A stretch of 48,414 nt of DNA, taken from contig CAIMWI010000023.1 in the NCBI GenBank assembly GCA_903845215.1, positions 1-48,414 of the forward strand, in the 5' to 3' direction. Positions 22 through 33,917 of this stretch are shown here, one piece after another. Each line of letters opens with the position of its first letter. The first letter of the stretch is position 1. The position numbers and the translations under genes were made by a program. Below the pieces are notes generated by a model. That model made no database searches and was not told the DNA's origin. It saw only the letters and a program-made list of their open reading frames with translations. Source of the stretch: an uncultured Rhodobacterales bacterium (lineage in GTDB: Bacteria; Pseudomonadota; Alphaproteobacteria; Rhodobacterales; Rhodobacteraceae).

Positions 22-50
22 GGGATATTTGGGCACATATGAAAGGGGGG
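22..50 (+). repeat. 3'-end element, copy A (AT-rich part)
   Basis: Reads GATATTTGGG then CACATATGAAAGGGG, preceded by a short CCTCCGGGGG run. It matches seven other copies in this window. In all the others the string lies just downstream of a gene in the same orientation, so it probably marks the 3' end of a plus-strand gene left of the window. No coding sequence is seen in bases 1-82. Confidence 0.6.
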
Positions 51-82
51 GGTGCGGGGGGGTAAGCCCAAAACCGGGGGGC

Positions 83-1159
83 TTAAGGCCAAAAGCGGGT
101 GGGACGGAAGGGGGATAGGTCGGGGGCTGCGGGGGCACCCAGAACCTCAGCCGTTAGAAGATCGGCAACGAGGGGGCCGAGGGTGATGCCAGAGTGCAGC
201 ACGGCCAGCCAAAGGCCGGGGGCGACGGGGCCTATGGCGGGCAGGCTATCACCGGGGACGGGGCGATAGGCCGCGGCCCAGTGGGCGGCGCGTAAGATGG
301 GCGGGCCATGGAACAGGGCGTTCAGGGCGGCCAAGGCGGCATCGACGCTGGCTTGTGGGTCAGCGGGCAGGGTTTCGGTGGCGTCGGACTGGTGATGTGC
401 GGCCACGGGCATCCAGACGTGGCCATTGCGGTCTTGGCGCACCTCTTGGCCGTTGATCGCAAGGATCGGGGCCAGCCTTTGGGGCACAGCTTGGGTGGCC
501 AAGATCACCCCGGGGCGGTGCAGCATGGGCAAGTGCAGGCCCACACCAGCCAAAAGCGCCGCAGCGCCAGTTCCGGCGGCGACGATCACCTGATCGGCGG
601 CAATCTCTTGTGCTGCCAAACGCACGCCGCAGACGCTTTCGCCGCGCGGGATCAGGCCCGTAACGGGGCTGTTCATCAGCACTCTGGCCCCCAGAGATTC
701 GGCCTTGGCCAGCAAGGCGCGGGTCAGGGCGGCGGGATCCACCGCGCCTTCTTGGCGCAGGTAAAGGGCGCGGGGCGGGGGATGGGCCAAGGCGGGGGCG
801 CGGGCTGCGATCTGCGGGCGTGTCAAATCTTGCAGCTCATAACCAAGATGGCCGAGGTCAGCGGCCATCTGGTCAAGCGCTGCCGCCTCTTCGACCCATA
901 GACAGCCTTGCCATTCCCACACGTCGGCCCCCAAATCCCGCGCCAGACGGTGGTGGGCCGCGATGCCCGCCACCCGCAGGTGGTGGTGGGCCGGGGTCAG
1001 GTAATAACTTGCGTTGATCCATCCAAAAGAGTGGCCCGAGGCCTGCGTGGCAGGTTGGGCCATTGCGTCCAGCACAGTGACACGCGCGCCCGCTTGGGCC
1101 AGACGATAGGCCAGCCCCGCGCCGATCAGGCCGGCCCCAATGATCACGACATTCTGCAT
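83..1159 (-). CDS. FAD-dependent oxidoreductase (DAO/DadA-like)
   Basis: 358 residues. The N-terminus has the Rossmann dinucleotide motif GAGLIG at residues 8-13, followed about 20 residues later by an acidic residue (VLDA), as in FAD-binding amine oxidases. A conserved-looking ASGHS segment near residue 40 and a C-terminal stretch ending in HSGITLGPLVADLL fit the D-amino acid dehydrogenase/glycine oxidase (DAO) fold. The likely role is oxidative deamination of an amino acid or N-methyl amine, but the substrate cannot be read from sequence. ATG start. It is divergent from the RarD gene with 89 bases between. No signal peptide is seen, so it is probably cytoplasmic. Confidence 0.85.
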   Translation of the reverse strand: MQNVVIIGAGLIGAGLAYRLAQAGARVTVLDAMAQPATQASGHSFGWINASYYLTPAHHHLRVAGIAAHHRLARDLGADVWEWQGCLWVEEAAALDQMAADLGHLGYELQDLTRPQIAARAPALAHPPPRALYLRQEGAVDPAALTRALLAKAESLGARVLMNSPVTGLIPRGESVCGVRLAAQEIAADQVIVAAGTGAAALLAGVGLHLPMLHRPGVILATQAVPQRLAPILAINGQEVRQDRNGHVWMPVAAHHQSDATETLPADPQASVDAALAALNALFHGPPILRAAHWAAAYRPVPGDSLPAIGPVAPGLWLAVLHSGITLGPLVADLLTAEVLGAPAAPDLSPFRPTRFWP

Positions 1160-1248
1160 CGCTGAAACCTCGCACGGGGGCCCATCCGTGTCGAGAGGCC
1201 GCGCAGTTTACCATAGCGGGTCGGTCCGCAATGGGCTAAGCCCGCGCC

Positions 1249-2124
1249 ATGAAATCGCAAGACACATCCCGCGGCTTTGCCTTTGCCCTGTCAGCCTATC
1301 TGATCTGGGGCTTTTTGCCCTTTTTCATGAAGGCCTTGGGCCATATCCCACCGCCCGAAGTTATCGCCCACCGCGTGGTGTGGAGCGTGCCGATCGCAGC
1401 CCTTGTGCTGGTGGTGCGGGGCGAGTTTGGCGGGATCTGGCCGCTTTTGCACCAACCGCGCATGCTGGCCATGGGGGCGGCGACGGCGGCGCTGATCTCT
1501 GTCAACTGGGGCATCTATGTTTGGGCCATCGGGGCGGGCCATGCGCTGGACGCGGCCTTGGGCTATTACATCAACCCGCTGTTCAGCATCTTTCTGGGCG
1601 CGGTTTTGCTGAAAGAAAAGCTGTCGCCCCGCCAGATGGCTGCCATTGGCCTTGCCGCCTTGGCCGTCGCGCTGCTGACATGGGAGGCGGGCAAGGTGCC
1701 CTTGGTCGCCTTGGGGCTGACGGTGACATGGGGCTTTTACGCCTATCTCAAGCGCAGCCTGCCCTTGGCGGCAAACCAAGGCTTCATGCTAGAGATTTTG
1801 ATCATGTCCCCCTTTGCGCTGGCCTATATAGCGTGGAACGCGGTGCAAGGCAGTGGCCACTTTGCGGCTGGCAGCGCGCCTGATACGGTGCTTTTGCTGG
1901 CCTGCGGGCTGGTCACGGCAGTGCCCTTGATGCTTTACGCCAACGGGGCAAAGGGGTTGCGCCTATCAACCATCGGCATTTTGCAGTATGTCTCGCCCAC
2001 GATGATCTTGATCATCGCCATTTTGGCCTTCAAAGAGCCCTTCGGCACCGCCCAAATGCTGGCTTTCCCGATGATCTGGGCTGCTTTGGCCCTTTACACC
2101 TCGGCCTTGGCGGGAAAATCTTAA
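1249..2124 (+). CDS. rarD: EamA/RarD family permease
   Basis: 291 residues made almost entirely of hydrophobic segments, compatible with ten membrane helices in two EamA (DMT) halves. The opening FALSAYLIWGFLPFFMKAL and the stretch YINPLFSIFLGAVLLKEKL are typical of the RarD subgroup, whose members are annotated as chloramphenicol-sensitive proteins although the substrate is generally unknown. The segment ILQYVSPTMILIIAILAFKE in the second half repeats the pattern of the first. ATG start, single gene. It converges on gatB, and the short space between holds a 3'-end element belonging to gatB. The family call is firm, the substrate is not. Confidence 0.88.
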   Translation: MKSQDTSRGFAFALSAYLIWGFLPFFMKALGHIPPPEVIAHRVVWSVPIAALVLVVRGEFGGIWPLLHQPRMLAMGAATAALISVNWGIYVWAIGAGHALDAALGYYINPLFSIFLGAVLLKEKLSPRQMAAIGLAALAVALLTWEAGKVPLVALGLTVTWGFYAYLKRSLPLAANQGFMLEILIMSPFALAYIAWNAVQGSGHFAAGSAPDTVLLLACGLVTAVPLMLYANGAKGLRLSTIGILQYVSPTMILIIAILAFKEPFGTAQMLAFPMIWAALALYTSALAGKS

Positions 2125-2196
2125 CGTTTTTCATACTTGTGCAAATATCCCCCGCGGAGCGTGCGGCCCTTCAGCCCGCGCAACGCTGGGGCAACA
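2125..2196 (-). repeat. 3'-end element, copy B (downstream of gatB)
   Basis: On the minus strand, after the gatB stop, a GC-rich stretch with a weak imperfect hairpin is followed by GGGGGATATTTGCAC and AAGTATGAAAAA (AT-rich part about 2127-2153). It has the same layout as the other copies: GC-rich region first, then ATATTT, then ATGAAA. It probably acts at the end of the gatB transcript, between convergent rarD and gatB. Confidence 0.5.
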
Positions 2197-2205
2197 AAGC
2201 TGCCC

Positions 2206-3717
2206 TTACAACCCCAGCTTTTGCGCCACCAAAGCGTTGACCACCGCCGGATTGGCCTTGCCACCCGTCGATTTCAGCACCTGCCCCGTGAACCAACCCG
2301 CCAGCTTGGCATTGACCTTGGCTTTTGCGACCTGATCGGGATTGGCGGCGATCAGCGCATCAAGGGCGGCTTCGATGGCGCCCATGTCGGTGACTTGCTT
2401 CATGCCATGTTTGGCGGCCTGTTCGGCCGGATCGCCGCCTTCGGTCCACAGGATTTCAAACAGGTCTTTGGCCATTTTGCCGCTGATCTCGCCTGCACCG
2501 ATCAGATCCAGCACGCCGCCCAATTGCGCGGCAGAGACGGGCGTGTCGCCAATGGCGCGGCCTTCTTTGTTCAAACGGCCGAACAGTTCGTTGATCACCC
2601 AGTTCGCAGCCATCTTGCCATCGCGGCCTGTGGCCACAGCTTCAAAGAACGCGCCAGAATCAAGCTCGGCCGTCAGCACATTGGCGTCGTAATCTGTCAG
2701 GCCGTAATCTTTCATAAACCGCGCCTTCTTGGCGTCGGGCAGTTCGGGCATGGTGGCGGCGATATCGTCGACCCAAGCCTGTTCAATCTCGAGAGGCAAA
2801 AGATCGGGGCACGGGAAATAGCGGTAATCATGCGCCTCTTCCTTGCTGCGCATGGAACGGGTTTCGCCCTTGTCGGGATCGTACAGGCGGGTTTCTTGAA
2901 TGACCGATCCACCATCTTCGACAATGGCAATCTGGCGGCGGGCTTCATAGTCAATCGCTTGCTGGATAAAGCGCAACGAGTTCATGTTCTTGATCTCGCA
3001 GCGCGTGCCAAGGTGCGAAAAGTCTTGGCTGGCCTGATATTTTTCATATTGGCCGGGGCGGCAGACCGATACGTTCACATCGGCGCGCAGATTGCCGTTT
3101 TGCATATTGCCATCACAAGTCCCCAGATAGCGCAGGATCTGGCGCAGTTTGGCGACATAGGCTGCGGCCTCTTCGGGGCCGCGAATGTCGGGGCGGCTGA
3201 CGATTTCCATCAAGGCCACGCCAGTGCGGTTGAAATCGACAAAAGACATGGCCGGATCCATATCATGGATCGACTTGCCCGCGTCTTGTTCCAAATGAAT
3301 ACGCTCGATGCGCACCAAGCGGGCCACGCCGGGCGACATTTCCACCAAAACCTCACCCTCGCCCACGATGGGGTGGTACAACTGGCTGATCTGGTAGCCC
3401 TGCGGCAGGTCGGGGTAGAAATAATTCTTGCGGTCAAAGGCCGAGCGCAGGTTGATCGCGGCCTTTAGGCCCAAACCGGTGCGCACGGCCTGTTCCACGC
3501 AAAAATCGTTGATCACGGGCAACATGCCGGGCATGGCGGCGTCAACAAAGGCCACGTTGGAATTGGGCTCTGCGCCCACTTGGGTCGAAGCCCCTGAAAA
3601 CAGCTTGGAATTCGAGGCGACCTGGGCATGGATCTCCATCCCGATCACCAGTTCCCAATCGTGCTTGGCCCCGGCAATCACCTTGGGCATAGGCTGGGTA
3701 TAGGTCAGATCAAGCAT
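2206..3717 (-). CDS. gatB: Asp-tRNA(Asn)/Glu-tRNA(Gln) amidotransferase subunit B
   Basis: 503 residues, the usual length of GatB. With GatA and GatC it forms the transamidase that converts mischarged Glu-tRNA(Gln) or Asp-tRNA(Asn) to the amidated form. Family signatures include [12 protein letters not shown] near residue 21, [17 protein letters not shown] near 95, and the C-terminal GatB/YqeY tail rich in Lys and Ala. The ATG start is preceded by a good GGAGG ribosome site (reverse complement of bases near 3721-3727). gatA and gatC are not in the window, so the gene stands alone here. It is divergent from the lytic transglycosylase gene. Confidence 0.97.
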
Positions 3718-3825
3718 GAAAACCTCCGGCGCTGTTCAGGGCCTTTTAGGGGGGGGGCGGGGGCGGTTCAAGGCCAAAGGCGGCGGAAATTCGCCGCTTG
3801 GGCGGGCAGGCCCCTGCCCTTGGGT

Positions 3826-3856
3826 TGGCTTTTGCGCCCTTGGCCCGCAAAAGCCA
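3826..3856. promoter_or_regulatory. 11-bp perfect inverted repeat between gatB and slt
   Basis: TGGCTTTTGCG (3826-3836) and CGCAAAAGCCA (3846-3856) are perfect reverse complements with a 9-base gap. The repeat lies in the divergent spacer between gatB (minus) and the transglycosylase gene (plus), 37 bases before the latter's ATG. It has no T-run, so it is not a classic terminator. It could be an operator or a leader hairpin. Function unknown. Confidence 0.45.
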
Positions 3857-3893
3857 GCAGTCACGCGCGGTGTGACGGCAACTTTTCGGTTCC

Positions 3894-4496
3894 ATGCAAG
3901 TCTTAAATCCTTTGCGTCTGACGTTGGCGATTTTCGCCTTTTGCCTTTGCGTGAGCACCCCTGCCGCAGCAAACGAGGCCAAATCCACGGCAAGCCTGCC
4001 GGCCATGCGCTGGGATCACACAGCCAATGGTGCGCAATGGACGGCCGAGGCTTTGGCCCAAGTTGCAAACCATGACGCAAAGCTGGCAGATCTGATCCCC
4101 AAGGATATCGAAACCTATTGCCCAAGCTATGCCAAAGCCTCGCATGAGGATCGCCGCGCCTTTTGGGTGGCGATTTTGTCGGCCACGGCGAAATATGAAA
4201 GCGGATACAACGCCAAGGCCATGGGCCTGCATGGCCGCTATGTGGGCCTGATGCAGATCAGCTTGGCCACGGCCCGCCGCTCTGGCTGCGAAGCAACCAC
4301 AACCGCCAGCCTTAAGGACGGCATGGCCAACCTGTCATGCGCCATCGCCATCATCGCCCCGCGCGTGGCCAACGATGGCATGGTGGCCGGCAAAGGCAAC
4401 CGCGGCATCGCACGCGACTGGGGCCCTTGGGCCAAGGCCAGCACCCGCGCCAGCATCGCCAAATGGACGCGCGCGCAGGCCTATTGCCAGCCTTGA
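3894..4496 (+). CDS. Small exported lytic transglycosylase (SLT fold)
   Basis: 200 residues. Residues 1-26 form a signal peptide (LTLAIFAFCLCVSTPAAANE). The mature part carries the SLT/lysozyme-like pattern: a helix ending in the likely catalytic glutamate in KYESGYN, then GLMQIS, which is the GLMQ(I/V) motif of transglycosylases. Such enzymes cleave peptidoglycan glycan strands in the periplasm. The protein is short and has no obvious extra binding domain. ATG start. It converges on pepN, and only about 100 bases separate the two stop codons. Confidence 0.85.
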   Translation: MQVLNPLRLTLAIFAFCLCVSTPAAANEAKSTASLPAMRWDHTANGAQWTAEALAQVANHDAKLADLIPKDIETYCPSYAKASHEDRRAFWVAILSATAKYESGYNAKAMGLHGRYVGLMQISLATARRSGCEATTTASLKDGMANLSCAIAIIAPRVANDGMVAGKGNRGIARDWGPWAKASTRASIAKWTRAQAYCQP

Positions 4497-4524
4497 ATTC
4501 GTATCACGCCTGATCCGTTTCAGG

Positions 4525-4594
4525 CTTGGCAAAAACATCCCTGCGCCACGCTTGGGGCTGCGGGGAGCATGGATATTTAGACACGCATGAAAGG
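4525..4594 (+). repeat. 3'-end element, copy C (downstream of slt)
   Basis: After the transglycosylase gene comes a GC-rich stretch that can fold weakly (CCCTGC with GCGGGG), then GGATATTTAGACACG and CATGAAAGG at 4571-4594. The order and orientation agree with the other copies. The copy ends two bases before the stop codon of convergent pepN. Confidence 0.5.
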
Positions 4595-4595
4595 A

Positions 4596-7136
4596 TCACC
4601 CGTTCATACGGGCGACCATCTCGGCCAGATTGCGGCTGATCGGAGCGGCGGCGATCCGCGCAAGCTGGGCTTTGATCAGCGCCTGCCGGCCCGCGTCATA
4701 GCGCATCCACGTCTCGAATGCGCCAGACATGCGGGCGGCGGTTTGCGGGTTCAGCGGGTCAAGCATAATCAACCAATCCGCCATCAACGCATAGCCCGCG
4801 CCAGAGGCGTGGTGAAAGCCCGCATGATTGCCCGACAGCGCACCAAAGACTGCGCGAAAACGGTTGGGGTTTTTCCAATCAAACAGCGAATGCTGGGCCA
4901 GCTTTTGTGTCACTGCTGCCGCCCGATCGGGGGCGGCGCACAGGATTTGCAGGCTGAACCATTTGTCCATCACCAGCCGCTCGCCCTGCCAGCGGGTTTC
5001 AAAGCGGGCCACTTCATCCTGACCCGCGCCGCCATCTAACAGAAGGGCCAGCGTGCCGACCTCTTCGGTCATGTTGGTCGCGGCCAAATGCGCTGCGCGC
5101 AAGGGCGCCAGATCAAGCCGCGCCCAAAGGCCCAAGGCCACCAAGCGCAGCGCGCGTTGGCCGGCCTGATCCGCCGCAGGGCTGAAGGCGCCCGCGATAG
5201 GGGCGGCAAGGGCGGGCAGATGCGGGACCAACTTATCCGCCAAGGTGCGCTGCAAGGTAAGCCGCGCTTGCCGGATCGCGTCAGGGTCGGGCACGCGGCC
5301 AAGGGCGGCCAAGGTCGCGGCCATGTCATCATCGCCGGGCAAGCGCAGCGTTAAGGCGCGAAAGGCCGGATCAAGGCTGGTGTCCAGCGCCACGCGTGCC
5401 AAACCTTCGATCAGGGGCGCGGGGTCGGCTTGCCCCATCAGCACCTCTTTGGCCAGCGCACGCCCCGACTCCCAACGGTTGAAGGGATCGGTGTCATGGG
5501 CCAGCAAGAACGCCCGCTCGCTGGCCGCGACCTGCCGGTTCAGCACAACGGGGGCCGAAAAGTCGCGCAGAACCGATGCGATGGGGCGGCTGGCCAGGCC
5601 TGCGAAGTCAAAGCTTTGCGTGGTCTGGGTCAGTTCCAGCACCGTGGTGGCAAGCACCTCGTCGCCGTTGGGGTTTAACAGGCCGACCGCCACGGGAATC
5701 ACCTTGGGGTCTTTTGTCGGCTGGCCGGGGGTGGGCGGATTGTCTTGGCGCAATGTCAGACGGAAGGTGCCGGTTTCAGCCAGCCAATCCTCGGTCACGC
5801 TTAGGTGCGGGGTGCCGGCTTGGGCGTACCAGCGCTTGAACTGGGTCAGATCGCGGCCCGTGGATTCTTCAAAAACCGCCAGCCAATCTTCGATTGTGGC
5901 GGCTTGGCCATCGTGGCGGTCAAAATACAAATCCAGTGCGGCCTGATAGCCCTGATCGCCCACGAGGCGCTTGAGCATCCCGATAACTTCGGCCCCCTTT
6001 TCATAGACGGTGGCGGTGTAGAAATTGTTGATCTCGACAAAGCTTTCCGGCCGCACGGGATGGGCCAAGGGGCCGGCATCTTCGCGAAACTGCCGCGCGC
6101 GCAGGGTTAGCACGTCTTCGATGCGCTTGACGGCGGCAGAGCGCATGTCGCCGGTGAATTGCTGGTCGCGAAAGACTGTCAGCCCCTCTTTCAGGCACAG
6201 TTGAAACCAGTCGCGGCAGGTGATGCGGTTGCCTGTCCAGTTGTGGAAATACTCATGCGCGATGACCGATTCGATGCGGCCATAATCGTCGTCGGTGGCC
6301 GTCTGCGGGCTGGCGAGCACAAGTTTAGAGTTGAAGATATTCAGCCCCTTATTCTCCATCGCCCCCATGTTGAAATCATCGACCGCCACGATGTTAAAGA
6401 TATCCAGATCATATGCGCGCCCATAAACCTGCTCGTCCCAGCGCATCGAGCGGATCAAACTGTCCATCGCATAGGCGCAGCGGTCTTCGTCGCCTTGGCG
6501 GACGTAGATGTTCAGATCCACCTTGCGGCCCGAGATCGTGGTGAAATCGGCGCGGTGGGCCAAAAGATCGCCCGCCACCAGCGCGAACAGATAGGCAGGC
6601 TTGGGCCAAGGGTCGTGCCATTCGGCCCATCCCGCCCCTTGCGCCACCGGATTGCCGTTTGACAAAAGCACCGGCAGATCGCTTTCGATGCGCACGTCAA
6701 AGGGGGCCATCACATCGGGGCGGTCGGGGTAAAAGGTGATGTGGCGAAAGCCCTGCGCCTCGCACTGGGTGCAATACATGCCGTTGGACATATACAGCCC
6801 TTCTAGCGTGAAATTGCCTTCGGGGGCGATCTCGACTTCGGTTTCCAAGGTGAAATCGCCCGAGGGCAGCAGATGGGCTGCAATGGTCAGGCCCGTGTCA
6901 TCGGGCACCACATCCAGCACCGCGCCGTTCAGGCGGGCAGAGATCAGGCGCAGCCCCTCGCCGTCCAGCCGCAGATCCTGGCCTGCGCCGCGCGCGGGGT
7001 TGGGCTGCATCTGCAAGCGCGCCAAGACCCGCGTGGCTTTTGGGGCCAGACGGAAGGTTAAAAAGACGCCCGTCACCAGATGGGTAAAGGGCTGGTAATC
7101 GGCCAGATAGACGGTCTTGGGGCTGTGCTCGGTCAT
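4596..7136 (-). CDS. pepN: Aminopeptidase N (M1 zinc metallopeptidase)
   Basis: 846 residues from the ATG at 7136 (MTEHSPKT). The open frame extends 31 codons further but that extension is not PepN-like. Motifs are GAMEN in FNMGAMENKGLN (substrate N-terminus recognition) and the zinc motif HEYFH (His294, Glu295, His298) followed by KEGLTVF carrying the third ligand Glu. The C-terminal half matches the E. coli-type PepN helical domain (DUF3458/ARM-like), and the length is close to the usual 870. The enzyme removes N-terminal residues from peptides in the cytoplasm. The gene lies 49 bases downstream of the double-SRPBCC gene on the same strand, so they may be co-transcribed. Confidence 0.95.
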   Translation of the reverse strand: MTEHSPKTVYLADYQPFTHLVTGVFLTFRLAPKATRVLARLQMQPNPARGAGQDLRLDGEGLRLISARLNGAVLDVVPDDTGLTIAAHLLPSGDFTLETEVEIAPEGNFTLEGLYMSNGMYCTQCEAQGFRHITFYPDRPDVMAPFDVRIESDLPVLLSNGNPVAQGAGWAEWHDPWPKPAYLFALVAGDLLAHRADFTTISGRKVDLNIYVRQGDEDRCAYAMDSLIRSMRWDEQVYGRAYDLDIFNIVAVDDFNMGAMENKGLNIFNSKLVLASPQTATDDDYGRIESVIAHEYFHNWTGNRITCRDWFQLCLKEGLTVFRDQQFTGDMRSAAVKRIEDVLTLRARQFREDAGPLAHPVRPESFVEINNFYTATVYEKGAEVIGMLKRLVGDQGYQAALDLYFDRHDGQAATIEDWLAVFEESTGRDLTQFKRWYAQAGTPHLSVTEDWLAETGTFRLTLRQDNPPTPGQPTKDPKVIPVAVGLLNPNGDEVLATTVLELTQTTQSFDFAGLASRPIASVLRDFSAPVVLNRQVAASERAFLLAHDTDPFNRWESGRALAKEVLMGQADPAPLIEGLARVALDTSLDPAFRALTLRLPGDDDMAATLAALGRVPDPDAIRQARLTLQRTLADKLVPHLPALAAPIAGAFSPAADQAGQRALRLVALGLWARLDLAPLRAAHLAATNMTEEVGTLALLLDGGAGQDEVARFETRWQGERLVMDKWFSLQILCAAPDRAAAVTQKLAQHSLFDWKNPNRFRAVFGALSGNHAGFHHASGAGYALMADWLIMLDPLNPQTAARMSGAFETWMRYDAGRQALIKAQLARIAAAPISRNLAEMVARMNG

Positions 7137-7185
7137 CGGGTCGATCCTTATGGGGAAACGGGGGCGAAAGCCGCCCCAGCACGGA

Positions 7186-8085
7186 TTACAGGCTTTGCGC
7201 CAGCGCCGCCAGCTTGCCCAAGGTTTCAAGCCCGCGCGCGTCGGCCTGATAGCCCATGGCCGCCGCCCGCGCTGCAGCGTCGGGCAGGGTCAGGGTTTGG
7301 GTCACCAGCGTGCCGCCCGCTTGCGCGGTCAAGGTTAGCTCTGCGTACATGGGCGGGCTTTGGGCGTCATCATCCAGCACAAAGGCGATGCGGTTGGCGT
7401 CCATCGCGGTATAGCGGTGGCGGTTGGGATAGGTTTGGCCGTGGCCCACCATGTCAAACCGCCACAAACCGCCCGCGCGTAGGTCGATTTCTTTGGTGAC
7501 GCAGCTAAATCCTGCAGGCCCAAACCATCGGGGCAACAGCGCAGGGTCGCTCCAGCAGCGCAGGATCGTGGCGGGATGGGCCGCGATCTGGGTGGAAATC
7601 GTGATCTGGCGGGCTGCAAGCTCTTGGGCGTAAGCTTCAAGCTGGGTGGCGACGGTGCCCCACCCGTCATGAAAGCCCATGGCGCGGTGCTGATCCGCCG
7701 CCGCTTTCGACCGATGCCGCACCACAGCGCGGTAGCGGGTGACGCCGGGTGCCAGATCCGCCAAGGTGATGATGGCCGTCATGAAAGGCTCTGCCACAGG
7801 CTTCCATCCGGCCTGATAGGTATCGGTAAAGACCAGCTTTTCGCCGGGGATCACCTCAAGATAAACCCCGTTGTTTTCCATGATGGTCCCTTCGAGATCA
7901 AAGGTGGTCGAACACGCCCCTCCCGCCCGCAGGTCCAACGCACAGGCCACCACTTTGTGCGGCTTGGGCACGAACCAATGGGGCAGATGCTGCGGATCGG
8001 TCCAGCAGGTCCACAGGGCCGCGCGCGGCGCGTTCAGGTCACGGACCAGTTCAAGGTCCAGGTCGGGGTCCAACTCAATGCTCAT
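7186..8085 (-). CDS. Two-domain SRPBCC (AHSA1/activator of Hsp90 type) protein
   Basis: 299 residues from the ATG at 8085, which has a strong GGAGGTG ribosome site four bases upstream. The open frame continues upstream without support. Two copies of the AHSA1 domain are fused: residues about 10-135 (start RDLNAPRAALWTCWTDP, later LPHWFVPKP) and about 150-290 (TISTQIAAHPATILRCWSDP, later LPRWFGP). Both carry the W-x-D-P and W-F-x-P marks of this START-like fold, which binds small hydrophobic molecules. Bacterial single-domain members are common next to ArsR regulators, but none is present here. The function is unknown. Confidence 0.85.
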   Translation of the reverse strand: MSIELDPDLDLELVRDLNAPRAALWTCWTDPQHLPHWFVPKPHKVVACALDLRAGGACSTTFDLEGTIMENNGVYLEVIPGEKLVFTDTYQAGWKPVAEPFMTAIITLADLAPGVTRYRAVVRHRSKAAADQHRAMGFHDGWGTVATQLEAYAQELAARQITISTQIAAHPATILRCWSDPALLPRWFGPAGFSCVTKEIDLRAGGLWRFDMVGHGQTYPNRHRYTAMDANRIAFVLDDDAQSPPMYAELTLTAQAGGTLVTQTLTLPDAAARAAAMGYQADARGLETLGKLAALAQSL

Positions 8086-8157
8086 TTTCACCTCCATTGG
8101 CGCGCGTGCCTTCGTCTTACACCCCTGCGCCACAAACCCCAAGCCTCCCCCCACACC

Positions 8158-8244
8158 CCCCTTTCATATGTGCCCAAATATCCCACGGGGGTGCGGGGGT
8201 GTGAAACCCCCGCTCTTACAGCGGGTGCGGGGGTGTGAAGCACC
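8158..8244 (-). repeat. 3'-end element, copy D (downstream of the EcsC gene)
   Basis: On the minus strand, directly after the EcsC-family stop, come a hairpin GCGGGGGT-TTCAC-ACCCCCGC (8193-8213), then CCCCGTGGGATATTTGGG and CACATATGAAAGGGG (8160-8184). A second partial GC hairpin lies at about 8223-8244. The TTCAC loop is the same as in copies F and G, although the stem bases differ. Confidence 0.65.
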
Positions 8245-8988
8245 CTATTGCACGGCCGGCAATGCTTGCGCCCGCGCAAAGGCGCGCACCACCGGCTCTG
8301 CACCGTGATGTTCGGCCAAGACCATCAGCCGAAAGCGAATCCGTGCCAGACGGCGGTAGTGGTCCAGCCAAGCGGCGTTCAGCACCGCCCCGCCCAAGGC
8401 CCCCACCAGCGGCACAGCCGAGGCCGCAAGCCTTGGCCCGATCAGCGGCACCAAGCGCGGCACGGTGCGCGCGATCCAGCCTGACAGGCTGGGCCCCGCC
8501 AGCGCCAAGCGGCCCGTCAGATAGGCAGGGTCCAGCACCTCGGCCGCGCCCAGCACCTTCCCGCTGGCAAGAATGTCCAAACTGGCCAAAGCCACCCCGT
8601 CGCGGTCAGGATCAAGCCCCGCTGCGCGCGCCTCTTCACGGATGGCTTGCAAAAAGATCACCAAGGCAAAGGGCAGTTCCGCCAAGGCCCCCGCAAGACC
8701 AACAGACCCGCCCGCCGCCCCTGCCGCGATAATCAGCAAGCGTTGCTGGCGCGGGCTGGCTTGGGGGCCGGATTTGGCAACACCCAGCCCCACCCGCAGG
8801 GCTTGGGCCACCTGCGCCTCGACCTGCGCGCGCAAGGTTTGGGGCATCTTTGCCCATTGCGCTTCGAGCCCCGCACCAAGGCTGCGGCTTTTAGCTACCC
8901 AAGAGCTTTCAGCCCGTGCGCTTTCTTGCGCCAAGGTCGCGGCCTCTAACTCTAGATCATGCAGGATGGGGGCGGGAAGGTGGCTCAT
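8245..8988 (-). CDS. EcsC family protein
   Basis: 247 residues from the ATG at 8988 (MSHLPAPILHDLE). The longer open frame above it has unlikely composition. The middle part has Gly/Ala-rich hydrophobic segments (IIAAGAAGGSVGLAGALAELP, FALVIFLQAIREEAR and the C-terminal ASAVPLVGALGGAVLNAAWL) that match the EcsC domain, named after a Bacillus protein linked to an ABC exporter. In proteobacteria EcsC proteins are usually single genes of unknown role. It lies 49 bases downstream of a GNAT gene on the same strand. Probably membrane-associated. Confidence 0.8.
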   Translation of the reverse strand: MSHLPAPILHDLELEAATLAQESARAESSWVAKSRSLGAGLEAQWAKMPQTLRAQVEAQVAQALRVGLGVAKSGPQASPRQQRLLIIAAGAAGGSVGLAGALAELPFALVIFLQAIREEARAAGLDPDRDGVALASLDILASGKVLGAAEVLDPAYLTGRLALAGPSLSGWIARTVPRLVPLIGPRLAASAVPLVGALGGAVLNAAWLDHYRRLARIRFRLMVLAEHHGAEPVVRAFARAQALPAVQ

Positions 8989-9037
8989 CGGCCCAATATG
9001 GGCCTCAAAGGGCAGACAGAAAAGCCCCGTGACGGGT

Positions 9038-9526
9038 TTAAGCAGCGGTGACTTTGGTGACCGGCCCGCCGACATTGTCCCAAGCCCCGGCTTTGAGGGC
9101 AAAGCCCAGCACGCGGTCGGGGTTGGTGGGCGGGGGCATGATGACATTGGCGCGTTTTTCAAAGCCAAAGCGCCGGTAATAGGGCAGATCGCCCACCAGC
9201 AAAACACGCTCCCACCCCAAACGGCGGGCCTCGGTCAGGCTTTCGTTGATCAACAAACCGCCCAGGCCTTCGCCCTGATGCGTGGGGTGCACGGCGACGG
9301 GGCCTAACAGTAAGGCATCCTCGCCGCCCACCTCGATCGGCCAATAGCGAATGGCCGCCACCAGCACCCCGTCGGCGCGCAGCGTTAAGCACAGCGCCGC
9401 AACCGTGGGCACGCCGTCGCGCAAGCGGTAAGAGGACAAAGCCGTCCGACCGGGCGAAAAGCACAGGTCATACAGGGCCTCTACCTCCCACCAGTCGGCT
9501 TCGCTTTCTTCTTCCAGCTGGTACAA
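9038..9526 (-). CDS. GNAT family N-acetyltransferase (YhbS-like)
   Basis: 162 residues. The start is TTG at 9526, chosen because GGAGG sits four bases upstream and no in-frame ATG fits better. The acetyl-CoA-binding motif A is visible as LLGPVAVHPTHQGEGLGGLL (residues about 72-91), with the Q-x-x-G-x-G/A pattern, followed by YYRRFGFEK, the typical beta5-alpha4 end of GNATs. The central layout resembles YhbS-type predicted acetyltransferases. The substrate cannot be predicted. It precedes the EcsC gene on the same strand. Confidence 0.82.
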   Translation of the reverse strand: MYQLEEESEADWWEVEALYDLCFSPGRTALSSYRLRDGVPTVAALCLTLRADGVLVAAIRYWPIEVGGEDALLLGPVAVHPTHQGEGLGGLLINESLTEARRLGWERVLLVGDLPYYRRFGFEKRANVIMPPPTNPDRVLGFALKAGAWDNVGGPVTKVTAA

Positions 9527-9679
9527 GGCGCCTCCGCATCGGGCCCAAGGGAATCATCTGCAAACGCGCGTAACATGCGAAGATGACAGGATCAAATCCC
9601 ATGCCTTTGGGCGCCCCCTTCCCTTCCGCCCCTGCCCCGCCTAAGCTGCGCGCGTCCCCCAAACCGAACGAGCCGCCCC

Positions 9680-10255
9680 ATGTTCTACCAGCCCAAAGAC
9701 GGCCACGGCCTGCCCCATTCGCCCTTTAACGCCATCGTCGCCCCCCGCCCCATCGGCTGGATTTCCACCCGTGGCCCGCAGGGCGACAATCTGGCCCCCT
9801 ATTCGTTCTTTAATGCAGTTGCCTATACCCCGCCGCAGGTGATGTTTGCCGGTACGATGAAGGATTCGATCCGCAACATCCAAGACACCGGCGTCTTTGC
9901 CACCAACGTCGTCTCGCGCCCGATGTGGGAACAGATGAACCAAACCGCGGCCCATCTGGCACTTGGGGTGGATGAATTCGCCCATGCCGGTGTGCAAAAA
10001 GCCGAATGCAGCCTGATCAATTGCCCCCGTGTGGCGCAATCGCCTGCAACGCTGGAATGCCGCTTGCAACAGGTGGTGACGCTAGAAGGTGGTGAGGATT
10101 TTATGGTGATCGGCACCGTGATCGGCGTGCATATTGGCGATGAATATCTGACAGCCGGCAAATTCGACATCGTCAAAGCCCAAGTCATGTCGCGCCTAGG
10201 CTATATGGATTACGCGCAGATCAGCGAAACCCTGTCGCTAAAACGCCCCGATTAA
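9680..10255 (+). CDS. Flavin reductase-like (FMN-binding split-barrel) protein
   Basis: 191 residues. The N-terminal half has the pattern of the flavin reductase-like/DIM6-NTAB family: IVAPRPIGWISTRGPQG near residue 18, NLAPYSFFNAVAYTPPQVMF, then KDSIRNIQDTGVFATNVVS. These proteins bind FMN and often supply reduced flavin to a monooxygenase, but no partner oxygenase lies nearby. ATG start. The last four bases overlap the end of the convergent DddQ-like gene. The family call is strong, the specific reaction is unknown. Confidence 0.88.
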   Translation: MFYQPKDGHGLPHSPFNAIVAPRPIGWISTRGPQGDNLAPYSFFNAVAYTPPQVMFAGTMKDSIRNIQDTGVFATNVVSRPMWEQMNQTAAHLALGVDEFAHAGVQKAECSLINCPRVAQSPATLECRLQQVVTLEGGEDFMVIGTVIGVHIGDEYLTAGKFDIVKAQVMSRLGYMDYAQISETLSLKRPD

Positions 10256-10815
10256 GCGCCCAAAATCACCGACTTCGCCGCCAAATCCCCGCCGCGCCAC
10301 AGGTATAGGGCGGCCAGCGGCTCTGCCCCCACCCGCATCGCATGGGGCACCCAAGGCGCGTGGTGGATAGGCTGGCCGACCGGCACGGGGGCAAAGGGGC
10401 CGTCGCCCTGCTGCCACTCGGCTTGGCCGAAGATCGGCACATACACCTCTTCTGCGGCATGGGCATGGGCGGGATAGGTGATGTGCGGCCCCAGCAGCAA
10501 AACCCCGCAAGCGATCTGCGTGCTGGGGTAAGGCCCGCGCAGACCAATAAACTCCGCCCATCCATAGCCTTGCAGAAAATCCGCCCCGAAATCGCCCACC
10601 CCGTAGGTTTGCTGCCAGCGTAAGGACGGCGCCGCCGCCCGCAATATCCCCACGATGCCCGCCGTGCCCATCGTGCTTAACCACTGACATACCGGCAGGC
10701 TCGCTGGCTGCACGTCGCGCAACGGCCCCATCTCTGGCCACTCTGCCAAAAACGGCCGTGCCGCCCCCACCGCATCAAAGGCCGCCCGCACTGCAGCCAA
10801 AAGCTCTGCCGTCAT
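10252..10815 (-). CDS. DMSP lyase, DddQ-like cupin
   Basis: 187 residues. The C-terminal half is a single cupin barrel: motif 1 HAHAAEEVY (His117, His119, Glu123, Tyr125) then FGQAEW, and motif 2 with His151/His152 and VPHAMRVG (His158), followed by LAALYLWRGG. The Y-P-x-H-x-H-x-x-x-E-x-Y pattern and the closing LYLWRG are those of DddQ/DddL dimethylsulfoniopropionate lyases, which split DMSP to dimethyl sulfide and acrylate. The N-terminal helical part is shortish. No acrylate-use genes or DMSP transporter adjoin it, so the substrate could differ. It is divergent from apt and tail-to-tail with the flavin reductase gene. Confidence 0.78.
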   Translation of the reverse strand: MTAELLAAVRAAFDAVGAARPFLAEWPEMGPLRDVQPASLPVCQWLSTMGTAGIVGILRAAAPSLRWQQTYGVGDFGADFLQGYGWAEFIGLRGPYPSTQIACGVLLLGPHITYPAHAHAAEEVYVPIFGQAEWQQGDGPFAPVPVGQPIHHAPWVPHAMRVGAEPLAALYLWRGGDLAAKSVILGA

Positions 10816-11037
10816 CGCTTGCCCTTTCGTGTGAGGTTGGTCATGGCTGAAGGGGTATTTGAGCGCAGCGGATTTGTCATCGCGTCATTCGATCGGATTG
10901 CGGATTTTGCATCGGAAAGATGCGCTGCTTAGGGCATTGGTTGCGGTGCGTCAGATCGGTGCGATCCGCGACTGAGCAAAGCTTGTAGCGCAGCTTTGGG
11001 TCGTGCTAGCCATAGCGGGCGCAGTTCAGGGGCCGAT

Positions 11038-11571
11038 ATGAAAAAAAGCGTCAAAGACTATATCCGCACCATCGTAGACTTCCCGCATGACGGGATCTTG
11101 TTTCGCGATGTCACCACGCTTTTTGCAGACCCACGCGGGTTTCGCATGTGTGTGGACCAGTTGCTGGCACCCTATGCCGGATTGCGGATTGACAAGGTGG
11201 CGGGCCTAGAGGCGCGCGGATTTATTCTGGGCGGCGCTGTGGCGCACCAGCTGTCGACCGGCTTTGTGCCGATCCGCAAGAAGGGCAAGTTGCCAGGCCA
11301 AACGATCTCGCAGGCCTATAAGCTGGAATATGGCGAGGCCGTGGTCGAGGTGCATGACGATGCGATGCGCGCCGGAGAAAAGGTGCTGCTGGTGGATGAC
11401 CTTTTGGCCACCGGCGGGACTGCCGAGGCCGGCATTCGCCTGATCGAGCGTTTGGGCGCGCAGGTGATCGGCTGCGCCTTTGTGGTCGACCTGCCCGATC
11501 TGGGCGGGCGCAAAAAGTTAGAAGCCATGGGGATGGAGGTGCACGCCCTATGCGCCTTTGAAGGGCTGTAG
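11038..11571 (+). CDS. apt: Adenine phosphoribosyltransferase
   Basis: 177 residues from the ATG at 11038 ([12 protein letters not shown]). The open frame above it is not conserved-looking. It salvages adenine to AMP with PRPP. The PRPP-binding motif [14 protein letters not shown] spans residues 116-129, and [10 protein letters not shown] (56-65) and the flexible KKGKLPGQT region (81-89) match Apt closely. Length is as expected (about 175). Single gene between the DddQ-like gene (divergent) and the FAD dehydrogenase (convergent). Confidence 0.96.
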
Positions 11572-11575
11572 GGCG

Positions 11576-11719: not shown

Positions 11720-11780
11720 TGCCTATGCCAAAAACCGCGGCCGCCCCCAAAAGGGCAATATTTGTCGATCGATGAAGGGC

Positions 11781-13230: not shown

Positions 13231-13321
13231 CCTTTCACATGAGTCCAAATATCCTCAAGGGGTCCCTAGGGGAGGCGAGCCTCCCCTAGGCGCGGGGGGT
13301 CGGGGGGCGGCGCAGCCCCCC
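13231..13321 (-). repeat. 3'-end element, copy E (downstream of the RimJ-type gene)
   Basis: On the minus strand after the GNAT stop come GGGGGGC-loop-GCCCCCC (13302-13321), then a 12-bp perfect hairpin CCTAGGGGAGGC/GCCTCCCCTAGG (13265-13290), then GAGGATATTTGGACTC and ATGTGAAAGGGG (13231-13258). It is the only copy with two strong hairpins. The spacer holds nothing else. Confidence 0.65.
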
Positions 13322-17289: not shown

Positions 17290-17342
17290 CTTTCAGACTT
17301 GCCTAAACATCTCACGGGGGTCCGGGGGTGTGAAACCCCCGG
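17290..17342 (-). repeat. 3'-end element, copy F (downstream of ctaE)
   Basis: Minus strand after the subunit III stop: hairpin CCGGGGGT-TTCAC-ACCCCCGG (17322-17342), then CCCCGTGAGATGTTTAGG and CAAGTCTGAAAGGGGG (17290-17316). The loop TTCAC equals that in copies D and G. It lies between ctaE and SURF1 in the same-strand run, so it may separate transcripts or reduce read-through. Confidence 0.65.
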
Positions 17343-25268: not shown

Positions 25269-26174
25269 ATGCTAAAGGCCAAACTGGGGATTTCCCCGAT
25301 CTGCTGGTGGAACGACGATCTGGTCGAACTGTCTGACGATGTCAGCTTGGAAGAATGCCTGCGTCAGGCAGCACAGGCGGGATACACCGGCATGGAAACC
25401 GGGCGCCGTTTTCCGATGACCATGGCCGAACTTGGGCCGATCCTGACGAAATACGGCATTTCGGTGTGCGGCGGCTGGTTTTCCGGCACCGTGCTAGAGG
25501 GCGATCTGGAAGAGAACAAAGACCGCATCCGCGCCCAGATGGATCTGTTTATCGCGGCCAAAGCGCCGTGCATTGTTTACGGCGAAGTGGCACGCTCGGT
25601 CCAAGGCGACCGCTCTAAGCCTTTGGCCAGCAAGCCCAAGCTGGATGAAGACCAGATCAAGACCTATGCCCGCAACATGACCGCATTTGGCGAATGGTGC
25701 GCCGAACAGGGCATGCCGCTATCCTACCATCACCACATGGCTGCCGTGATCGAAACCGAAGCCGAGCTTGACCTGTTTATGAAACATTCTGGCGCGGGTA
25801 TTCCTTTGCTGTTTGACGCGGGCCATCTGGCCTTTGCCGGCGGCGATGTGCTGCGCGCCATCGACAATCACCATGCCCGCATCACCCATGTGCACACCAA
25901 AGACGTGCGGATGCAGGTGATCAACGCCCTTGATCGGTCAAAGGACAGCTTCCTTGACGCCGTGGTGAAGGGGGCCTTCACTGTGCCCGGCGATGGATCT
26001 TTGGATTTCGAGGCGATTGTCAAACGCCTTGCGAGCTATGGCTACGAGGGCTGGTTTGTGGTCGAAGCCGAGCAAGACCCCAAAAAAGCCCCGCCGCTGG
26101 AATGGTCAACCAAGGGCAACAAGGAACTGCACCGCGTGATGGCGGCGGCGGGCTATCAGGTGGTGGCAGCCTAA
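25269..26174 (+). CDS. iolE: Inosose dehydratase (myo-inosose-2 dehydratase)
   Basis: 301 residues from the ATG at 25269. The extra 27 codons upstream run through the palindrome and are not used. A TIM-barrel xylose-isomerase-like (AP endonuclease 2 fold) protein. KLGISPICWWNDDL, VSLEECLRQA, GYTGMETGRRFPM and SYHHHMAAVIE are characteristic of IolE, and GHLAFAGGD plus THVHTKDVR carry the metal-binding residues. It dehydrates 2-keto-myo-inositol in inositol breakdown. The rest of the iol pathway is not here: its neighbours are tex and the xylose genes. Relatedness to other sugar isomerase/epimerases makes the substrate slightly uncertain. Confidence 0.88.
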   Translation: MLKAKLGISPICWWNDDLVELSDDVSLEECLRQAAQAGYTGMETGRRFPMTMAELGPILTKYGISVCGGWFSGTVLEGDLEENKDRIRAQMDLFIAAKAPCIVYGEVARSVQGDRSKPLASKPKLDEDQIKTYARNMTAFGEWCAEQGMPLSYHHHMAAVIETEAELDLFMKHSGAGIPLLFDAGHLAFAGGDVLRAIDNHHARITHVHTKDVRMQVINALDRSKDSFLDAVVKGAFTVPGDGSLDFEAIVKRLASYGYEGWFVVEAEQDPKKAPPLEWSTKGNKELHRVMAAAGYQVVAA

Positions 26175-26186
26175 AACCCGCCCCCC

Positions 26187-26241
26187 CTTCATCTTGGCAA
26201 AAATACTCCACGGGAGGTCTGGAGGGTGTGAAACCCTCCAG
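26187..26241 (-). repeat. 3'-end element, copy G (downstream of the ROK repressor gene)
   Basis: Minus strand after the ROK stop: hairpin CTGGAGGGT-TTCAC-ACCCTCCAG (26219-26241), then CTCCCGTGGAGTATTTTTG and CCAAGATGAAGGGGGG (26187-26211). Compared with copies D and F the stem has changed base pairs but still pairs perfectly, and the loop TTCAC is unchanged. Confidence 0.65.
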
Positions 26242-26286
26242 CCTGCAGCAAGGCGGCCTTGGGCTTTGCGCTGAGCGCCAATGCCG

Positions 26287-27561
26287 CTATTGGGCCGCCA
26301 TCTCGCGCTGCGCGGTCAAGGCTTTCTCACTCACCGCCGAAAGGGCTAAGGCCGCCGCCCCATGTGCCCACATCAGATCACCCCAAGCGTGAATTTCAAT
26401 CGGCAGGCGGGGACGGCCAGAGTTGATGACAAGATCCTGCATCTCGGCCAAAGTCTCGGCCGCATAAAGATAGTCGTACTGCATCCGCACGCCTGACAGG
26501 ATGATCAGGGCCGGGTCAAACAGGTTGACCACATTGGCCAAGCCCATCGCCAGATAGCGCCCTGCCCGGCGAAAGATGCTGCGGGCGGTGGCATTGCCGG
26601 CTTTGGCATGATCATACAGGCTTTCCAGCAAAACCGGCATCGACAGGCTTTGACTGGCGTTCAGGTTCAAGGCCGTCACCGCCTCGCGCGCAAGGGCGTA
26701 ATCAGCCACATAAGCCTCAAGACAGCCGCGCTGGCCGCAGCGGCACAGCGCGCCGTCCAGTTCGACCTTGATATGCCCCAGTTCCAACCCCAGCCGTTGG
26801 GCGCCGCGGTAAATGCGGTGGTTCATCACAAAGCCCATGCCGACGCCGTGTTCAATCGTTACCACGGCAAAATCGGCCAAGCTGCGGCCCGCGCCAAACC
26901 ACAGCTCGGCCAAGGCCACCAGATTGGCGTCATTGTCGATGGCCACGGGCAAACCCATCCGCGCTTGGGCGGCAGCGGCAAAGGGCACGGCGCGTTCGAC
27001 CAAGGTTGAAGACCAATGCACAAATCCTGAATCATGGTCGACAAATCCGGGCAGGCCGATGCCCAACCACGACAAATCGCCCCGCCCGATCCCCGCCTTG
27101 GCACAGACACGGTTCAGCAGATGATCGACCACATCCAGCATATCGGCCACCGACGCCGGGCCTGGATCGCGCGCAATCGAGTCGTCGGCCAGTTTGTTTC
27201 CGGCAAAATCCACCACGACAGCCGTATGTTCGCGGTCAGACAGTTTCATGCCCACGACATAATGCGCAGCCCTGCGCACACCCAAAGCCACCGCAGGCCG
27301 CCCACGGCCATGGTCGGTGTCGCGGGGTACTGCGACCTCTTCGATCAGGCCCGCCTCGATCAATTCCGACGTGATCGTGGTCACTGTGGCAGGGCTGACG
27401 CCCAGATCCTTGGCCACTTGCACGCGCGCCACCAAACCCTCGGCGCGCACGCGGTCAAACACCTGTTGGCGCAAAGGGCGCATCTGTTCAGACCACGGTG
27501 TGATCAGCGGGCCGCAGCCTAGGCGGCTTTCGTCTGGCACCGCGACCAAATCTTTGCGCAT
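26287..27561 (-). CDS. ROK-family transcriptional repressor (XylR-like)
   Basis: 424 residues. An N-terminal winged helix-turn-helix at about 30-85 (VAKDLGVSPATVTTITSELIEAGLI, with GRGRP after the wing) is joined to a ROK sugar-kinase-like domain. The structural zinc motif CRCGQRGCLEAY (Cys273, Cys275, Cys280) with GHIKVE (His263) is intact, as are GIGLPGFVD and AIDNDANLVALAE. Such proteins repress sugar genes until xylose or a relative binds. It is divergent from xylF, so it is very probably the local xylose regulator. ATG start with GGAG upstream. A later Met27 (MRPLRQQVFD) is an alternative start. Confidence 0.92.
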   Translation of the reverse strand: MRKDLVAVPDESRLGCGPLITPWSEQMRPLRQQVFDRVRAEGLVARVQVAKDLGVSPATVTTITSELIEAGLIEEVAVPRDTDHGRGRPAVALGVRRAAHYVVGMKLSDREHTAVVVDFAGNKLADDSIARDPGPASVADMLDVVDHLLNRVCAKAGIGRGDLSWLGIGLPGFVDHDSGFVHWSSTLVERAVPFAAAAQARMGLPVAIDNDANLVALAELWFGAGRSLADFAVVTIEHGVGMGFVMNHRIYRGAQRLGLELGHIKVELDGALCRCGQRGCLEAYVADYALAREAVTALNLNASQSLSMPVLLESLYDHAKAGNATARSIFRRAGRYLAMGLANVVNLFDPALIILSGVRMQYDYLYAAETLAEMQDLVINSGRPRLPIEIHAWGDLMWAHGAAALALSAVSEKALTAQREMAAQ

Positions 27562-32524: not shown

Positions 32525-32533
32525 AGGGCCGCC

Positions 32534-33835
32534 ATGACCGACTTTTTCAAAGATATCCCGGCCATCACCTATGAAGGGCCGACCTCCTCCAACGAATTCG
32601 CCTTTCACCACTACAACCCCGACGAGGTGATCTTGGGCAAGCGGATGGAAGACCATCTGCGCTTTGCCGTCGCCTACTGGCACTCGTTCGCCTATCAGGG
32701 CCACGACCCCTTTGGCGGCCAAACCCTGCTGCGCCCGTGGTTTGGCGAGACGATGGACCTGGCCCGCCAAAAAGCCGATGCCGCCTTTGAGATGTTCGAT
32801 ATCTTGGGCGTGCCCTTCTACTGCTTCCACGACGCCGATGTGCGCCCCGAAGGGGCCACGTTTGCCGAAAGCAATCGCAATCTGGACGCGATGGTGGATT
32901 ATCTGGGCGAAAAGCAAGCGTCCCATAAGGCCAAGCTCTTGTGGGGCACGGCCAACATGTTCTCGAACCGCCGCTGGATGAGCGGCGCTGCCACCAACCC
33001 CGATCCGGATGTGTACGCCTATGCGGCGGCGATGGTGAAAGCCAATCTGGATGCCACCCATAAGCTGGGCGGGGCAAACTATGTGCTGTGGGGTGGGCGC
33101 GAAGGCTATGAAACGCTTTTGAACACCGACCTGAAAGCCGAGCGCGAACACGCCGGCCGTTTCTTGCAACAGGTCGTTGAATATAAGCACAAGATCGGCT
33201 TCAAAGGCACGATCCTGATTGAACCGAAACCGCAAGAACCCTCTAAGCACCAGTACGACTATGATGTGGCCACGGTTTACGGCTTTTTGGTGCAGTTTGG
33301 CTTGGAAAAAGAGGTCAAGGTCAACATCGAACAGGGCCATGCCATTCTGGCGGGCCATTCGTTCGAACATGAACTGGCGCTGGCGACATCCTTGGGCATC
33401 CTTGGGTCGATCGACATGAACCGCAACGATTACCAATCGGGCTGGGACACCGACCAATTCCCCAACAACACCCCCGAAATGGCGCTGGCCTATTACGAGA
33501 TCCTCAAAGGCGGCGGGTTGCACACGGGCGGCACCAACTTTGACGCCAAGATCCGCCGTCAAAGCCTTGATGCCGAAGACCTTATTCTGGGCCATGTCGG
33601 CGGCATGGACACTTGCGCGCGCGCTTTGAAGGCCGCTGCGGCCTTGCTGGCCGATGGCGGGTTGGAAAAGGCCCGCGCCGAACGCTATGCAGGCTGGTCG
33701 ACCCCCAAAGCGCAGGCCATGCTGCAAGGCGGTTTGGCCGAAGCCGCAGCGCGTGTGACGACTGAAGGGCTAGAACCGCAGCCCAAATCGGGCCGGCAAG
33801 AGCGGCTGGAAAACCTGTGGAACCGGTTCGTGTGA
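32534..33835 (+). CDS. xylA: Xylose isomerase
   Basis: 433 residues, group II xylose isomerase length. The signatures [12 protein letters not shown] (catalytic His/Asp pair), [35 protein letters not shown] with metal-binding Glu and His, [17 protein letters not shown] and [20 protein letters not shown] are complete. It converts D-xylose to D-xylulose using two divalent metals. Last gene of xylFHGBA, followed by 3'-end element copy H. Confidence 0.97.
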
Positions 33836-33868
33836 TCTGAGACGGCAGCGCAGGGTGCAGCGGCAGGA

Positions 33869-33917
33869 CCGGGGCCAGCCCCGGACCCCGGAGTATTGGG
33901 ACAAAGAGCAAATGGGG
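33869..33917 (+). repeat. 3'-end element, copy H (downstream of xylA)
   Basis: After xylA: hairpin CCGGGGC-CA-GCCCCGG (33869-33884), then CCCCGGAGTATTGGGACAAA and GAGCAAATGGGGGG. It is the most divergent copy but keeps the order hairpin, GGAGTATT, A-rich, G-run. It ends 12 bases before the haloperoxidase start. Confidence 0.55.

Follow-up and report, generated by a model that had tools for sequence, protein, structure and literature searches.

The window analysed here, 48,414 nt from an uncultured Rhodobacterales bacterium (positions 1-48414 of contig C23 of genome G000, an assembly of 3.0 Mb in 88 contigs that is 93% complete), carries several copies of a short module for which a lineage-specific terminator is the leading reading. 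The module has a set order, often beginning with a hairpin or with the mini-hairpin CCTCCGGC-GGG and continuing with RTATTT, three free bases, a genome-specific five-letter word and ATGAA. On balance, and judging from sequence, it is probably a polar transcription terminator in which TATTT(T) would serve as a weak U-tract and the word with ATGAA as a sequence-specific tail lying beyond the predicted release point, read by a postulated factor that would vary between lineages. A directional stop is favoured because of the upstream hairpin, the weak A/U tract, the inward orientation of closely spaced copies, the placement at gene ends and a canonical-looking terminator found at the corresponding site of one relative. 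The element was followed up by pattern searches and by comparison of orthologous sites.

RTATTT-N8-ATGAA was the generalised pattern that fitted best, and the window, scanned with it at up to two mismatches, contained six exact matches, compared with a mean of 0.025 and a maximum of 1 in 40 dinucleotide shuffles; alternative patterns concurred (5 matches vs 0.04 expected, and 9 vs 1.7). Further places with one or two mismatches, mostly inside genes, were also listed in the window and were taken as chance. The same pattern had 114 exact matches in the whole genome and none in the control, a long type-A pattern allowing up to two mismatches matched 65 times and its reversed form not once, and a looser pattern gave 131 against 0 for its control. 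Each of the 15 genus mates carried RTATTTN8ATGAA, in 29-245 copies per genome with every control at 0; the observation of the initial annotation is largely right and extends well past the window. When the word class was narrowed, at least 10 copies were found in 31 of 149 genomes of the order and none in 63 (controls, 0 or 1 per strand). When one dialect of the element was sought in named genomes, the scan gave at least 116 stretches, of which the 80 loci listed were used; these came almost all from Rhodobacterales or Rhodobacteraceae; among those listed, four titles named other groups (a Gammaproteobacteria metagenome-assembled genome, Pseudomonas, Polynucleobacter and Tenacibaculum) and one gave just Alphaproteobacteria. 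GC content was considered as a cause of presence or absence and was not decisive, the means being 62% for 19 motif-poor and 66% for 30 motif-rich genomes (~3 kb each), with overlapping ranges.

The initial annotation had described one fixed consensus string, a description that finds no support for the middle of the module. The N8 consists of NNN followed by a five-letter word, and the word is nearly fixed within several genomes and differs between them, forming a genome-specific dialect. It is CCAGA in G062 (33 copies, 94-97% per position), ACAGA in G057 (19 copies) and GCAAG in G118 (50 copies), the word statistics having used 19 of the 23 copies of G057 and 50 of the 64 of G118; words are mixed in G099 (GCAAG in 12 and CCACA or CCACG in 15 of 27 copies), and the sampled part of the window's own genome (n = 47) has CACAT in 22 copies, CAAGT in 12 and CCAAG in 7. 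Word positions carried 1.4-2.0 bits in G062, G057 and G118, compared with 0.1-1.4 bits in the preceding NNN. Within NNN the first two bases stood at 0.1-0.3 bits in G062, G118 and G099, the bias was larger at the third, reaching 1.4 bits in G057, and GGG is favoured in the own genome. A word that hardly varies within a genome but differs from one genome to the next would be expected of a site whose reader changes with it, and the tail rather than the hairpin is most likely the part recognised, as RNA or as DNA.

Other lineages showed related forms. In G016, which had no match under the narrower word class, an unbiased count of intergenic words returned TATTT-NNN-GGATAAAGATG behind GC hairpins, in four copies over 260 kb, three of them exact to TATTTGAAGGATAAAGATG. 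Two loci of Paracoccus denitrificans retain the hairpin, the C-rich linker and GTATTT, with the tail AACAGAGAAATC or AACGGAGAAATC, and one copy in Cereibacter sphaeroides has the word CCAGA. Allgaiera indica and a Roseovarius strain are also carriers, with CCAAG or GCAAG as words.

Upstream stems of at least 8 bp were present at 47% of 206 copies vs 13% in shuffled sequence, and downstream stems of this size at 16% vs 11%. The CCTCCGGC-type mini-hairpin occurred in 38 of the 206, and in 106 a run of C followed by G stands immediately 5' of RTATTT. The proposal that the hairpin with the constant TTCAC loop is a structured element gained support, since 30 distinct copies showed eight complementary arms (some differing in length alone). 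Between hairpin and tract there is often a C-rich linker of 8-16 nt, which in the TTCAC class duplicates a good part of the hairpin's 3' arm. Seven listed TTCAC copies have stems unlike plain G/C runs; their linkers likewise contain T and, by eye, complement at least five bases of the 5' arm, as in the arm CCGGGAGGG with the linker ACCCTCCCG. To judge from this complementarity, pairing of the 5' arm with the linker could bring the hairpin nearer the TATTT tract. Pairing of the C-run with a G-run after the motif was also considered and was rejected, being inconsistent among the G062 copies when inspected by eye.

The module had been said to lack the T-tract of an intrinsic terminator. TATTT is indeed typical, but the statement was too strong, since TATTTTT is found in the copy at 26188 and GTTTTTT in one that follows rnpB in G125. 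With the exception of the 26188 copy and one rnpB copy, typical copies do not have at least five T in the ~6-8 nt after the stem, and a canonical terminator scan of window positions 1-20000 flagged none of the seven copies there.

Placement relative to genes was analysed in a pooled set comprising the own genome, six other genomes and 76 named loci, from which the loci with titles outside Rhodobacterales (L101, L105, L139 and L164) were left out, here as in the stem, linker and TTCAC-loop counts. Since the named loci had been picked via one dialect and most stretches were centred on known matches, counts per kb are biased, and the related genomes are not independent. Genes were predicted with a home-made codon-usage caller, which on two annotated plasmid loci gave all 14 genes with the correct 3' end and strand, plus two extra calls at places where the plasmid annotation has no gene; annotation and caller agreed on the context of both motifs in these loci. 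Nine of the 209 pooled matches lay at edges and were excluded from the shares, 6 were in genes, and 62, 117 and 15 fell in convergent, tandem and divergent gaps, respectively, making 194 of the 200 placed copies intergenic. Convergent gaps held 32% of the intergenic copies vs 18% of the gap length (p = 6e-6), and divergent gaps 7.7% vs 29% (p = 3e-13), with copies treated as independent in both tests. Moreover, among 23 pairs of copies within 250 bp of each other, three of them from one three-motif cluster, 21 pointed inward, one outward and one had both copies on the same strand (p = 3e-11, copies again treated as independent), which fits two opposed terminators.

The 3' end of the motif lay within 20 nt of a stop codon in 27 of the 62 convergent copies and in 22 of the 46 copies antisense to their tandem neighbours, and in the annotated record of Gemmobacter fulvus an antisense copy lies 4 nt from a stop. 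The strand bias in tandem gaps was weak, with 71 sense and 46 antisense copies (p = 0.026). The claim that copies follow genes in the gene's own direction is true of the accepted non-edge copies of the window, where a convergent gap satisfies it on either strand, but it loosens to this ratio in the pooled tandem gaps. What the initial annotation had anticipated genome-wide is clear for gene 3' ends and convergent gaps, both favoured, and weak for the gene strand.

Noncoding genes and orthologous sites extend this picture. With three loci at contig edges dropped, a same-strand copy with at most one mismatch was found within 130 nt downstream of rnpB in 3 of 27 genomes (G062, G035 and G125), one of them with TTTTTT, and look-alikes were seen by eye in two more (G013 and G050); sense copies behind rnpB speak against a purely translational role. 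Behind the gene for cytochrome oxidase subunit III (COX3), the element occupies the same place and orientation in 11 of the 13 genus mates with both anchors (decayed in G154), and its hairpins are shared among close mates and unrelated in several others. At this site G153 carries what looks by eye like a canonical terminator, a GC hairpin with TGTTGTTTT behind it, and in G151 CTGCATTTGAGGGG comes after a hairpin. Turnover is seen as well: the element at 26174-26287 is absent in G160, G162 and G163, where the gaps measure 21, 33 and 36 nt, and lies on the opposite strand in G158 and G159. Another copy is part of a dispersed repeat of ~100 bp (8147-8245) with 86-94% identical copies elsewhere in G000 and in relatives; a search of phage records for this repeat gave no match.

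If the module is a terminator, the hairpin and the short A/U tract would cause release of RNA polymerase in or near the three free bases, and a sequence-specific factor would read the word with ATGAA immediately past that point. Candidate readers are a DNA-bound roadblock or a polymerase-associated protein, either of which would offset the weak U-tract, and joint change of site and reader would let the words drift between lineages. Any transcript entering from the hairpin side would be stopped, namely mRNA at gene 3' ends and antisense RNA where the module faces the next gene, and RNA 3' ends should then fall within ~10 nt of TATTTNNN at intact copies. A wider version of this model, which we put forward tentatively and consider less likely to be right than wrong, is an order-wide, polar and factor-assisted terminator in which a fast-evolving protein binds the word+ATGAA tail, either as a roadblock or as a reader on the polymerase side, readers and dialects are matched by lineage, and the sites guard against both antisense and sense read-through.

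Like intrinsic (Rho-independent) terminators, many copies of the module combine a GC hairpin with an A/T-rich tract 3' of genes, and the COX3 site of G153 has a hairpin with TGTTGTTTT in its place. Unlike such terminators, the module has a short and interrupted U-tract, often a C-rich linker of 8-16 nt that sets the hairpin off from the tract, and a conserved word with ATGAA past the expected release point, and the canonical scan did not flag it in the part of the window covered. Roadblock terminators such as Reb1, TTF-I and mTERF impose a polar stop through a sequence-specific site downstream of the release point, and the module would share this polarity and this position of the site; unlike in those systems, the polymerase here is bacterial, a hairpin is involved and the protein is postulated.

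Several observations weigh against termination. A signal for the core polymerase would not be expected to show dialects, and the reader that would explain them is a postulate; several copies, moreover, have no strong hairpin. Of the 117 tandem-gap copies, 46 are antisense to both neighbours, and all 4 relatives that have both anchors retain an antisense copy upstream of the signal recognition particle (SRP) RNA gene, with CACAT, CACGT or CAAGC as the word. This conserved copy would agree with a role in stopping antisense transcripts or with one at the level of DNA. Antisense copies also lie downstream of rnpB in G073 and upstream of it in G076, G027 and G103, and none of 29 loci had a sense copy within 300 nt downstream of the SRP RNA gene. 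Furthermore, 22 of the 71 tandem-sense copies stop no more than 16 nt short of the next called start, six of them overlapping it, which leaves no space for a downstream promoter, and a sense copy of Cereibacter sphaeroides sits between the annotated genes gap and fba. Finally, T-tracts were present in 9 of 11 convergent gaps of G033 (GC 55%), which is almost motif-free, but in motif-poor genomes with a GC content of 64% or more, represented by one stretch each, the figure was just 3 of 18, which falls short of a clean swap of the motif for a T-tract.

The copies that stand right before starts and those in likely operons, including the one between gap and fba, are what one would expect of an element of RNA stability or processing, in which the hairpin blocks 3' exonucleases, the tail is a site of RNA cleavage or protein binding, and transcription continues through. 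An mRNA element should lie in sense, however, and antisense copies are common, one of them conserved; in addition, 3' ends that depend on PNPase are reported to have no motif upstream of them (PMC7866481, accessible part). We regard this explanation as unlikely. The dialects and inverted pairs recall instead the DNA uptake sequences (DUS) of Neisseriaceae, which are also associated with terminators and are the nearest precedent we found for dialects (PMC3630211, in the sections available). They would agree, as would the weakly biased orientation in tandem gaps, with a DNA landmark for a DNA-binding protein, active in chromosome organisation or in uptake-like self-recognition, tolerated at gene ends and with the hairpin secondary. 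DUS, however, are stated in the same sections to number thousands, and the module, at 29-245 copies per genus genome, is ~10-100 times rarer; high copy number including coding regions is not its pattern either, 6 of 200 copies being in genes. An uptake word would not need the constant 3-base distance from TATTT seen in the tabulated genomes; the module further differs from DUS in its upstream hairpin of unrelated sequence, and its pairs are nearly all inward. Such a landmark seems to us quite unlikely.

REP elements are intergenic hairpin repeats near gene 3' ends with a family-specific conserved foot and RAYT transposases. The module is like them in location, hairpin and foot, and a mobile REP-like repeat, that is, a self-copying module whose homogeneity within a genome reflects recent spread, would explain the ~100-bp repeats of 86-94% identity, the absence or reversed orientation of the element at 26174-26287 in relatives and the preference of the own genome for GGG. 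Set against this, the NNN bases of G062 and G118 vary next to a word that is near-fixed, orthologous sites retain the tail where some hairpins have been replaced, and no Y1 transposase (PF01797) was found in the own genome (93% complete), compared with 5 of 14 controls. Copy spreading may account for some of the homogeneity seen in the own genome; it does not account for variable bases beside fixed words in G062 or G118, and as an account of the module itself we hold it to be distinctly doubtful. Very improbable, in our judgement, is a promoter or small reading frame with TATTT as the -10 element and ATGAA as the start codon. The spacing of TATTT and ATG would allow a leaderless start, reading frames of at least 60 codons begin at this ATG in 29% of cases vs 18% in the other two frames, and a sigma-70 scan found a promoter-like match of 9 in 12 positions at 8205-8177, formed by the hairpin loop TTCACA and GATATT 17 nt apart. 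That scan, however, returned four promoter-like sites vs 5.2 in shuffles, and the ATG is missing in the two Paracoccus denitrificans loci; the placement, convergent and avoiding divergent gaps, likewise speaks against this explanation.

In the window itself, seven of the eight copies proposed by the initial annotation fit RTATTT-N8-ATGAA (five exactly, one with one mismatch and one with two) and the eighth, at 33869-33917, is decayed; an exact match at 11758-11776 (+) had been overlooked, and the copies are not equivalent. The accepted non-edge copies are all intergenic, and the four that lie in convergent gaps approach the opposing stop codon to 4-13 nt. The exact copy at 25..43 (+, word CACAT) has its upstream part truncated by the contig start. 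That at 2130..2148 (-, exact, CAAGT) lies in the convergent gap between an EamA-type gene (1249-2124) and gatB (2206-3717), both named by Pfam, and occurs at the same place in G149, G155 and G162 and is missing in G150. The copy at 4573..4591 (+, exact, CACGC) is 4 nt off the stop of the convergent gene 4596-7136; it was found in G149, G155, G162 and G150 and is absent in G160 and G159. Its decayed partner at 4518..4540 (-, coordinates by eye), which faces outward, is recognisable in G149, G155, G150 and G162. The ~100-bp repeat contains the exact copy at 8163..8181 (-, CACAT), with a TTCAC hairpin at 8193-8213.

The overlooked copy at 11758..11776 (word GATCG), also found by a second pattern, adjoins no strong GC hairpin, and the convergent gene 11781-13184 has its stop codon 4 nt away. 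At 13234..13252 (-, one mismatch) a GC hairpin is present upstream at ~13265-13290 and a second one extends to 13321 (by eye), both the same in G162 and G149. The copy behind the COX3 gene (identified by Pfam), at 17292..17310 (-, two mismatches), has its TTCAC hairpin at 17322-17342, and the type C copy at 26188..26206 (-, exact, CCAAG), the one with TATTTTT, has a TTCAC hairpin with another stem at 26219-26241. The decayed copy at 33869..33917 (+) gives no match within two mismatches, having kept the hairpin CCGGGGCCAGCCCCGG and GGAGTATT and lost the tail; decayed forms resembling it are present in G162, G149 and G155. Rfam 15 had no match at gathering score across the window, and a permissive Rfam scan of 8050-17450 gave one match only, at chance level.

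Some further observations concern the surroundings of the module. Contigs C12, C13, C19, C23 (the window), C61 and C88 of G000 start within 66 bases of a copy, and element copies may break assembly. At L024:14719-14848 an inward pair with its upstream flank forms a unit of up to ~130 bp, of which partial copies with 77-93% identity occur at many sites in the genus. A tail GAAAGG or GAAGG stands ~10 nt 5' of a start codon at L026:499, L012:17554, L017:16764 and others, and may act as the ribosome-binding site of the next gene. In an alignment, inward pairs with a spacing of ~150-173 bp stand on either side of a conserved structured sequence, GGTACAGG-N8-CCGATGACC...GGTGAAG (L012:4531-4661, L309:7475-7623, L104:6276-6429, L112:4173-4321, L117:1713-1857, L128:2885-3029 and L152:3158-3307). 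Changes in the inner N8 of this sequence are compensatory, exact copies of the sequence (1-4 per genome) are present in 66 of 101 genomes of the order, and it had no Rfam match at gathering score, making it a candidate noncoding RNA outside Rfam; in the own genome, one copy is located between two genes that by eye resemble edd and eda. Near gene ends, AT-rich palindromes of the GATTTTTCGCNGAAAAATC type also recur (L017, L021 and the L092 gap, by eye) and are possibly ordinary bidirectional terminators.

No published description of the module was found in the portions available of the open-licence PubMed Central literature (supplements excluded). In their accessible text, three studies of R. 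sphaeroides (PMC8625941, PMC7866481 and PMC5089854) and a small RNA study of Paracoccus denitrificans (PMC5107571) mention terminators and no such motif, and three of these four predicted terminators with TransTerm or TransTermHP; a survey of structured RNAs (PMC8632094) names, in the part available, other Rhodobacterales motifs.

The module touches on the question of how GC-rich bacteria with few U-tracts end transcription. With 29-245 copies per genome in this genus, and with a fixed architecture and genome-specific words in further genera of the order, it provides defined sites, natural word swaps and orthologous pairs. The postulated reader, if real, would amount to a bacterial termination factor whose specificity shifts, and even if the module acted in RNA stabilisation alone, its recognition would improve the annotation of 3' ends in the genera that carry it.

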